From NCBI GenBank assembly GCA_030680795.1, contig JAUXUL010000051.1, positions 1 to 64,000 on the forward strand: a stretch of DNA of 64,000 nucleotides, written 5' to 3'. Shown here one piece after another: positions 4,568-19,757 of this stretch. Numbering within the stretch: the stretch's first letter is position 1; each line of letters opens with the position of its first letter. The position numbers and the translations under genes are program-made. This DNA is from Anaerolineales bacterium (GTDB taxonomy: Bacteria > Chloroflexota > Anaerolineae > Anaerolineales > Villigracilaceae). Below the pieces are notes generated by a model. The model was not told the DNA's origin, did no database searches, and saw only the letters and a list, made by a program, of their open reading frames with translations.

Positions 4568-4622
4568 GAGTTCTCCTTTTTAATGTAGTTAGGCCAGCAG
4601 GTAACTGCGGGCCGAAAAGAAT

Positions 4623-4999
4623 TGGAGATGGCGGGAATTGAACCCGCGTCCGAAAGATTCGACCCTCGGAAATCTACGAGCGTAGCCTGCCGAAGTTAGT
4701 CATCACAGAGATCTCGGCGGGCAGGTAACTCTGTGACCATCTGCTGGTCTTTCGCTCAATTAGCAGAGTCAGGAGCGGCACTCTACCTTTGTTTCGCCCG
4801 ATCCGTCACCCGGTAGAGGACGGTGCCGGCGGACGTGACATCCTAAGATGTCAACCGTTACGATCTCACCTAGGCGGCGAGGGGCATAGCGGCGTATGAA
4901 GTGCGGTTGGCACTTAAAATTTGCGCTGAGTTTACGAGTTCGGCGCGCGCTCGGCTCGCATTCCGGAACCAGCCTCTCCCGTCGAAGCCTGTCATCCCC
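4623..4999 (-). ncRNA. ssrA: Transfer-messenger RNA (tmRNA)
   Basis: Rescues stalled ribosomes with SmpB. The RNA begins GGGGATGACAGGCTTCGACG and ends with the T-arm CGCGGGTTCAATTCCCGCC and CATCTCC. The 5' GGGGATG pairs with 3' CATCTCC (one G-U) to form the acceptor stem, with A as discriminator. No CCA is encoded, so it must be added after transcription. The motif CTCGTAAA ahead of the tag aligns with the E. coli sequence CTCGTAAAAA. It is one-piece, not permuted. Confidence 0.95.
4870..4911 (-). other. tmRNA tag-peptide reading frame
   Basis: Aligning the segment before the resume codon with E. coli tmRNA (TAGTC-GCA-AAC versus TAAGT-GCC-AAC) places the resume codon at GCC 4911-4909. The encoded tag is ANRTSYAAMPLAA followed by TAG. 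It ends in LAA, as degradation tags usually do. A longer reading from the preceding GCG is possible but less well aligned. Confidence 0.75.
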
Positions 5000-18840: not shown

Positions 18841-18934
18841 TATATGTCATTGTGAGGGCGGTGATTGTCCGCCCGAAGCAATCTCCAGCGCTGTGTAAGG
18901 GATTGCTTCGGGCTTTGCCCTCGCAATGACATAT
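18841..18934. repeat. Dispersed repeat, ATGTCATTGYGAGGGC family
   Basis: A 94-base element with 18-base terminal inverted repeats (ATATGTCATTGTGAGGGC and, inverted, ATATGTCATTGCGAGGGC). The core reads GAAGCAATCTCC ... GGATTGCTTCGGG. Related copies lie at 28751, 60845 and 62055. It occupies the metG 5' untranslated region between the attenuator and the ribosome-binding site. Confidence 0.75.
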
Positions 18935-18940
18935 CATTTA

Positions 18941-18973
18941 CAAACAAAAAGGCTGTCCGCGTGATGGACAGCC
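18941..18973 (-). terminator. Attenuator-like terminator upstream of metG
   Basis: On the minus strand GGCTGTCC-ATCACGC-GGACAGCC is followed by TTTTTGTTTG. It lies 23 bases after the leader-peptide stop and about 115 bases before the metG start, so readthrough is needed for metG expression from the leader promoter. Confidence 0.8.
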
Positions 18974-18996
18974 CGTATTCGTTCAGGTTTGTGAAC

Positions 18997-19092
18997 CTAA
19001 CGTGCTTTCCGCTCAGCGCGGCAATACATCTCCATTCGCATGGACATGGCCATGGTCATTGTCACCATTGTGTAAGCAGGTCCCGTATTCAT
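18997..19092 (-). CDS. Methionine-rich leader peptide of metG
   Basis: A 31-codon reading frame beginning MNTGPAYTMVTMTMAMSM and ending in KAR-TAG. It has eight Met codons, seven of them in a 14-codon run (residues 9-22). The frame is followed by an intrinsic terminator and then metG. A -10-like TAAACT ends exactly seven bases before the ATG, so the message may be leaderless; no ribosome-binding site is needed or seen. Stalling at Met codons when charged tRNA-Met is scarce would be the classical way to relieve a downstream terminator. The antiterminator pairing is not obvious by eye. The opposite strand reads as a His-rich frame, but it has no promoter or terminator in register. Confidence 0.6.
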   Translation of the reverse strand: MNTGPAYTMVTMTMAMSMRMEMYCRAERKAR

Positions 19093-19099
19093 GGGCAAT

Positions 19100-19128
19100 A
19101 GTTTACTATGTCCTTTGATGTCTGGCAA
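19100..19128 (-). promoter_or_regulatory. Promoter of the metG leader
   Basis: TTGCCA (19128-19123), 17-base spacer, TAAACT (19105-19100). The leader-peptide ATG follows after seven bases (ATTGCCC), the same spacing as at the cysteine desulfurase promoter, consistent with a leaderless start. Confidence 0.5.
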
Positions 19129-19250
19129 GTCATTTAGTGAGTGTGCAAATAGTTTATGGATGAGTTGAATAATTTTTTTGCGAAGCAAGCTCCTGTTTTT
19201 AAACCTTCACCATTAGCAAGGCAAGCCATAAAAAATCCAATTCCCTGAAT

Positions 19251-19757
19251 TTACAAAAGGTCTTTCAACTTGGCAAACGGTGAATCGGACTGTGCGGGTC
19301 TATGGCCGCAATCTTTTTCATTCAAGTTTTCGCCGCATTCCATACAAAGTCCCTTGCAATTGGGTTTGCAGACCGGGCTGATGGGAATTTCAAGCAGGGT
19401 ATACTCGCGCAAAAGTTCTGCAATATCAAGGTGGGCATCTTCGGGCAGGATGAGACCAGATTCGGTTTCGGAGCGTTTGTCGAAAGCATACAGCTCGGTG
19501 AAGGACCAATCCAGTTCGTGCTCGAAGTCTGTCAGGCAGCGCACGCAGTTGAGGGAGGTTTCAGCGGAGAAATCCGCCTGCAGGATCAGTCCCTGCGGGG
19601 TTTTGCCGACATTGGCAATCCCTTCAAAATTGCGCAGTTCAAGGTCATCACCAAGGATGACCTTGTCAAATGCAAAAGGGAAGTCATGGTTGTAGCCGAC
19701 TTCTCCATGGACGATGAAGCCGACGTTAAAGCGGAAGGGTTTTTTTGGGCTGGGCAT
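19251..19757 (-). CDS. yceD: YceD/DUF177 family protein
   Basis: A 168-residue member of the YceD (DUF177) family, linked in other bacteria to 23S rRNA accumulation. It starts MPSPKKPFRFNVGF, as the family usually does, and carries the Cys signature in two parts: CVRCLTDFEHEL in the middle, and CKPNCKGLCMECGENLNEKDC with the terminal GHRP. ATG 19757 is preferred over GTG 19775: the GTG lies at the edge of a dispersed repeat (19778-19828), and the family N-terminus fits the ATG. The ribosomal L32 gene rpmF, its usual downstream partner, is absent; the metG leader follows instead. Confidence 0.85.
   Translation of the reverse strand: MPSPKKPFRFNVGFIVHGEVGYNHDFPFAFDKVILGDDLELRNFEGIANVGKTPQGLILQADFSAETSLNCVRCLTDFEHELDWSFTELYAFDKRSETESGLILPEDAHLDIAELLREYTLLEIPISPVCKPNCKGLCMECGENLNEKDCGHRPAQSDSPFAKLKDLL

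Follow-up and report, generated by a model that had tools for sequence, protein, structure and literature searches.

A putative methionine-codon attenuator upstream of metG in Anaerolineae, with a leader that appears to be leaderless

Upstream of metG, the 64,000-nucleotide stretch of Anaerolineae DNA analysed here (the window) contains a short methionine-enriched reading frame and, between this leader and the gene, an intrinsic terminator as judged by sequence. The two probably form part of a ribosome-mediated transcription attenuator that senses charged Met-tRNA, a reading to which we assign a probability of about 0.88. Attenuation had already been proposed in the initial annotation of this DNA. 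The proposal gained support at the sequence level from the conserved Met cluster, the position of the promoter, the terminator, and a pairing between the last codons of the leader (region 2) and the stretch containing the 5′ arm of the terminator (region 3).

The features of the locus are listed in Table 1. The annotated frame of 31 codons with eight Met, seven of them within 14 codons, was present in full and was assigned to the minus strand; the seven clustered Met fall in codons 9–22. The promoter-like −35/−10 pair with 17-base spacing, ending seven bases before the ATG, was recovered as described. So was the terminator with its T5GT3 tail, stated to lie 23 bases past the stop: the gap is 22 bases to the hairpin (18974–18951) and 23 bases to the GGCTGTCC stem, and the tail TTTTTGTTT occupies 18950–18942. 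The metG product matched PF09334 (Pfam, E 2.6e-131) and TIGR00398 (NCBIfam, 458 bits; cut-off 336). Runs of CATG occur in the window's own copy of the leader. On the plus strand opposite the Met run (18865–19101), a His-rich frame, HSHGHGHGHCHHC, was seen that had no Pfam match; it is a side effect of the Met run, since ATG and CAT are complementary. Palindromic elements similar to the one that separates the terminator from metG were found at the same position in several relatives (e.g. L005, L011, L029 and L030). Elsewhere in the window, a tmRNA gene (RF00023) is located at 4620–4999 on the minus strand.

Table 1. Features of the metG leader locus in the window, and loci with comparable leaders before tyrS and proS
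Feature	Position or locus	Strand	Remarks
YceD	19775-19251	minus	PF02620, E 4.7e-28; precedes the promoter-like pair
-35 hexamer TTGCCA	19128-19123	minus	TTGACA in many relatives
Spacer, 17 bases	19122-19106	minus	between -35 and -10
-10 hexamer TAAACT	19105-19100	minus	followed by 7 bases, then the leader ATG at 19092
Leader frame MNTGPAYTMVTMTMAMSMRMEMYCRAERKAR	19092-18997	minus	31 codons, 8 Met; stop TAG at 18999-18997
Candidate region 1, GCTTACA	19071-19077	minus	GCTTTCC in many relatives; possible partner of GGAAAGC (region 2)
Antiterminator region 2, AGCGGAAAGCACGTT	18999-19013	minus	last leader codons and first stop base; AGTGGAAAGCACGTT in many relatives
Region 3, TACGGGCTGTCCATCA	18962-18977	minus	contains GGCTGTCC, the terminator 5′ arm and region 2 partner
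Intrinsic terminator, GGCTGTCC / GGACAGCC hairpin and TTTTTGTTT tail	18974-18942	minus	about -16 kcal/mol
Palindromic repeat-like element TGTCATTGCGAGGGC...GCCCTCACAATGACA	18842-18934		separates terminator from metG
metG, methionine--tRNA ligase, 611 aa	18825-16990	minus	GGAGG before ATG
Tyr-rich leaders	L357:1160-1263 (own genome, G000:C46), L355, L356, L364-L393		
Pro-rich leaders	L329 (own genome, G000:C2), L327, L328, L394-L423		

Within the genus, a 320-base query (18941–19260) gave a match at E 1e-6 or better in 35 of 37 genomes, its own included. The two genomes without a match were G031 and G034, and G002, G006 and G024 matched only the last 37–97 bases or so of the query. Among 24 genomes outside the genus, no match to this query was better than E 0.01. 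The open frame from the conserved start was kept in all 30 genus loci, each with at least two internal Met (two in L020, three in L015 and at least five in the remaining loci), and all 30 had the arrangement TAAA(A/C)T, seven bases, ATG. In 29 of them metG followed directly downstream; in L018 the contig ends. The leaders differed in length and in the number of Met, and the terminal WKAR-stop, or a sequence near to it, was among their most constant parts. Inside the Met leader of L006, L033, L035, L213 and L219 there was an in-frame palindromic insert (approximately TLAPGASAG), which looks like a small repeat tolerated within the frame; in L005, a similar palindrome lies just past the terminator.

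For the family, MetG was found in 109 of 120 genomes, and 80 further upstream regions extended the set to 115 loci, 33 of which belong to the genus. A locus was called by script if at least two ATG codons fell within 14 codons and a terminator lay −3 to 75 bases past the stop. The alignment of upstream regions in relatives that the initial annotation had recommended thereby turned out in its favour, as Met frame and terminator stayed together in 108 of the 115 loci by script and in two more, L155 and L182, by eye. At least three Met within 14 codons were present in 106 of the 108, and the reverse complements, used as a control, gave three calls in 115, each with two Met. Five loci (L162, L168, L196, L210 and L212) lacked the arrangement by script and by eye. 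In the called leaders, 508 ATG were in frame vs 10 and 18 in the other two frames, and Met made up 17% of the residues, figures that are partly circular because the frame was picked for Met. The last Met preceded the stop by a median of 10 codons within the genus and of 11 among the remaining family loci.

The position of the promoter was similarly constant. A TANNNT box 6–8 bases before an in-frame leader start was found in 100 of the 108 called family loci, as TAAAAT in 47 and as TAAACT in 43. The same search at six other offsets returned 3–25 of 108, which is the fairer control since the script tries every in-frame start; with a single ATG on the reverse strand, 31 of 1110 were positive. 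Among the window's open reading frames of at least 200 amino acids, 5 of 42 had such a box near the start. From the position of the −10 box, a leaderless form is therefore predicted for the leader transcript, which would be uncommon among the window's genes, and this suggests a start at or beside the AUG. In family f33, a −10-like box ended seven bases before the leader ATG in four of five loci, and in L068 (f58) the distance was nine bases; in families other than these two, such a box was not always present.

The initial annotation had described the antiterminator as not evident by eye. It became apparent across the family as the pairing of region 2 with region 3. The window itself illustrates it poorly: CGG replaces TGG, ATCA replaces ATTT, and the antiterminator is weaker than those of the relatives. 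In the main design, the last leader codons, ...AGTGGAAAGCACGTTAG, face (A)ACGGGCTGTCCATT, the stretch holding the 5′ arm of the terminator, and the duplex joins UGGA.AGC.CGUU with AACG.GCU.UCCA and has two A–G mismatches. Of 63 loci of type A1, 56 (55 distinct) were aligned and L017, L036, L143, L144, L169, L194 and L218 were omitted. In this register 94.4% of 675 cells were paired, a count that favours regular loci because the seven were set aside mostly for a shifted or doubtful region 2 register. Registers slid against each other were paired at 19.6–52.6%, and none of 500 shuffles reached as high a value. The terminator hairpin itself was paired in 100% of 440 cells. Double-sided changes were confined to four cells of a single pair (CG to UA, columns 34 and 66), the GU/AU alternation at columns 24 and 77 was one-sided, and pairs with a double change were no more numerous than in the shuffles (329/500).

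Several other genera carried GGACAGC or GGGCAGC as region 2, which pairs fully with GCTGTCC, including one G–U pair at most, and in L208 a change in the arm was matched by its partner (GGGCAGC opposite GCTGCCC). Of the 108 called loci, 92 are of the main type, and a variable four-base extension of the duplex was examined in 89 of them after three redundant ones had been dropped. It formed 2.53 pairs with its own partner vs 2.05 with permuted partners (sd 0.08, 0/1000), and covariation was not significant with one locus per genus (22 loci, median p 0.15). A second design was recognized in 16 loci, in which region 2 reads GCCAG or near it beside the stop and the terminator arm reads CTGGC or CTGGT. 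Outside the family, perfect helices were found in f33, GGGACAGGCG with CGCCTGTCC (L074), and in f23, TGGCGGTC with GACCGCCA (L048); the region 2/3 duplex was weak in L123, L054 and L059. Judged by complementarity, the second design and the helices of other families follow the same antiterminator logic in different letters. At the family level, complementarity thus shows an antiterminator, weak in energy, that shares sequence with the leader's end and is mutually exclusive with the terminator.

The energies of the antiterminator duplex were modestly better than those of shuffled sequences (median z −1.04, 25% of 108 loci at p ≤ 0.05), and the window's own duplex was no better than its shuffles (−13.7 vs −13.5, z −0.08). 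When folding was modelled before the 3′ arm was made, the terminator's 5′ arm was paired with upstream sequence at 0.71 (genus) and 0.65 (other family loci) with the ribosome at the last Met, and at 0.18 and 0.24, respectively, with the ribosome at the stop. In the same ensemble model, a shuffled spacer gave 0.56 and RNA without a ribosome gave 0.61 (genus) and 0.65 (rest of the family); in the model, then, untranslated RNA is not shut off. Outside the family, the contrast between a stalled and a finished ribosome was small (0.67 vs 0.50). With the full hairpin, the terminator was favoured on average in every state (0.84–0.96, and 0.85–0.90 for the stalled ribosome), with L010 as an exception; the switch would therefore have to be kinetic. 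Since duplex and ensemble energies discriminate weakly, the case rests on the pairing in register and on conservation. A candidate protector pairing between regions 1 and 2 (GCTTTCC with GGAAAGC) had a mean of 6.2 of 7 pairs in 30 loci, compared with 1.2–4.7 when slid. It was without significant covariation (181 of 1000 permutations as high), and in the window's own copy it is weak (5 of 7).

The Met-rich frame that the initial annotation had proposed to look for in related genomes also recurs beyond the family. In the class, MetG was found in 132 of 150 genomes; the upstream regions of 110 were taken and 109 examined (L039 was dropped as too short), and the other 22 had a cut or short upstream region or fell beyond the number taken. 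Judged by their titles, 80 named relatives were nearly all metagenome-assembled genomes, mostly labelled Anaerolineales or Chloroflexi bacterium. Among the 101 upstream regions from outside the family, which represent 38 families, Met cluster and terminator were called together in 20, vs 0 of 101 reverse complements; any terminator at all was present in the searched stretch of 33, and 81 lacked the combination by script. The positives came from f23, f24, f33, f35, f50, f52, f55, f57, f58 and f59, and f27 contributed a single further locus with only two Met; examples of their leaders are MNTVSVAVSMRMQLLSSPQGRQR (L083) and MKRSTILMMMRSLPWGRRCEAP (L055). A search of the phylum gave MetG in 74 genomes, from which 20 upstream regions were sampled. 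Of these, 19 belonged to other classes and one to the same order, and none of the 20 was convincing. L311 was formally called with two Met and was rejected as unconvincing, with a frame of 50 codons.

Chance and known RNA families were considered as sources of the arrangement. On both strands of the window, 29 terminator-like sites were detected by script, and only the one at the metG leader follows a frame with at least four Met in 14 codons; one other follows a frame with three. The window, reverse-complement and shuffle controls together rule out a chance Met cluster. An Rfam scan of the window and 20 loci returned no family above its gathering score at the metG leader element, neither the T-box (RF00230) nor a SAM or other riboswitch, and the same scan detected T-boxes at pheS. 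Further copies of the element in the same genome were sought with blastn, and gave weak matches only (E 0.04 or worse).

Comparable leaders were found at other synthetase genes. At 19 of 30 family loci, sampled from 58 genomes with a match, an apparently leaderless Tyr-rich leader and a terminator precede tyrS (e.g. MFELKRETYYYYSHP). All 19 leaders have at least two Tyr and 15 have at least three, Tyr accounts for 21% of the residues and several contain YYYY; among the other 11 loci, several have a longer frame that finishes in YY or YYY. These leaders are likely Tyr-codon attenuators by their sequence. For proS, 30 loci were sampled from 60 genomes with a match. A Pro-rich, apparently leaderless leader with a −10 box and a terminator was present at 27, with proS following directly or about 0.7–1.2 kb downstream, and two further loci had a Pro leader without the −10 box; the longer scan that gave these counts required a Pro motif. 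With 450 upstream bases scanned, Pro leaders had been recovered at 3 of 30 loci, since they can be as far as about 1.2 kb from proS. The Pro leaders have the form M..NPNPSP....RSG or similar (e.g. MLMNPNPSPRMCNSSRSG), and their terminator is very constant. L328 has two other genes separating its leader from proS, and L420 had no Pro leader in its 801 upstream bases. NCBIfam supplied the names of tyrS (own genome) and proS (G026). The leaders at metG, tyrS and proS are thus each rich in the amino acid of their own synthetase, which supports codon sensing. In the same two genomes, a T-box (RF00230) precedes pheS (L362 and L361). At putative ThrRS, ValRS, IleRS and LeuRS loci, assigned by Pfam family and length, we observed terminators with a CGTCC- or CGCCC-like arm, recalling T-box terminators; no T-box match above the gathering score was found there.

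From the anatomy and its conservation, both read from the sequences, we infer a transcript start, ribosome stalling, readthrough and a switch that depends on Met-tRNA. Transcription would start at or beside the leader AUG, and the leader would be translated from a leaderless 5′ end. If Met-tRNA is plentiful, the ribosome would pass the Met codons to the stop and cover region 2, the terminator would form and transcription would halt before metG. If Met-tRNA is scarce, the ribosome would stall among the clustered Met codons, some 10 codons short of the stop. Region 2 would then stay uncovered and could base-pair with the terminator's 5′ arm in region 3, and the polymerase would enter metG.

The same anatomy could belong to a small Met-rich protein, for example a metal- or redox-related one, with metG merely the next gene; the frame is indeed flanked by a promoter-like pair and a strong terminator of its own, and metG carries its own GGAGG. 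We consider this improbable, about one chance in twenty, as a functional protein is hard to reconcile with a frame that remained tied to metG in 29 of 30 loci, in which mainly the Met clustering, the shortness and the region 2 codons persist across genera and families while the remaining peptide varies. The peptide also lacked a Pfam match at E ≤ 1, and parallel Tyr and Pro leaders occur before tyrS and before proS or its operon. Slightly less probable still is structural or protein-mediated control, by a riboswitch, an RNA-binding protein or a DNA operator of CATG palindromes, with an incidental frame. The CATG runs in the window copy and the modest antiterminator energies taken alone would fit such control, but the ATG codons keep one frame despite length changes and in spacing variants (MMM, MxM, MxxM) across families, in 100 of 108 loci a start codon is placed where the transcript is expected to begin, and the Rfam scan of the window and 20 loci was negative.

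We give the lowest weight to arrest by the nascent peptide, or plain coupling of translation and transcription, in which charged Met-tRNA is not counted. The Met codons could double as internal starts, and the model does not yield the antiterminator as its equilibrium fold. Unlike typical arrest peptides, the metG leader peptide is little conserved beyond Met across families; moreover, the tyrS leaders abound in Tyr and those of proS or its operon in Pro.

The kind of mechanism proposed for metG, attenuation by sensing of codons, is known; the novelty lies in the use of Met, the metG target and the occurrence in Anaerolineae, together with the apparently leaderless form. Leader-peptide attenuators are classical at trp, his, leu and pheST. 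T-boxes, which metG carries in many Gram-positives (Firmicutes), bind the tRNA directly and independently of translation, and more synthetase is made when the tRNA is uncharged. The metG leader would likewise raise the synthetase when the tRNA is uncharged. In contrast to a T-box, it depends on translation in our proposal; no T-box was found at metG, and the T-boxes of the family sit at pheS. T-boxes have been placed in Chloroflexi in PMC3766115 and PMC2494555, in whose main texts metG is absent. Excerpts of PMC1262725 present classical attenuators of trpS and leuS in Streptomyces, as predictions, and contain none for methionine operons in Actinobacteria. The metG leader shares with these attenuators a short frame rich in its own codon, an antiterminator that excludes a U-tailed terminator and a synthetase as the target, and differs from them in its regulatory codon (Met), in its target (metG), in its occurrence in Anaerolineae and in its apparently leaderless start. 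According to an excerpt of PMC9031893 that cites Canestrari et al. 2020, leaderless polycysteine short ORFs attenuate in mycobacteria in a manner dependent on Cys. They resemble the metG leader, as predicted here, in being leaderless and in using contiguous codons for one amino acid; they concern Cys, another phylum and downstream translation, whereas the metG leader concerns Met, an intrinsic terminator and a proposed region 2/3 switch. Among the open-access matches listed, none describes a Met-codon attenuator of metG (Lopatovskaya 2010, on synthetase attenuation, lay outside this comparison).

If the metG switch operates as proposed, more enzyme would very likely be made when charged methionine tRNA is short. 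Methionine is an awkward amino acid for counting codons because the same synthetase also charges the initiator tRNA, so that starting and stalling share one enzyme. A wider, tentative view, which we regard as possible but rather doubtful, is that Anaerolineae have home-grown leaderless codon-counting attenuators at metG, tyrS and proS or its operon beside the T-boxes at pheS, and that the metG device reads two tRNAs. If so, the 5′-terminal AUG would sense initiator fMet-tRNA and decide whether the leader is translated at all, elongator Met-tRNA would set the stall site, and the metG response could rise at moderate shortage and drop again at severe shortage. Taken together, the leaders suggest that Anaerolineae control several synthetase genes by leaderless leader peptides in genomes with a T-box as well, and two solutions to one problem may thus be compared within one cell.
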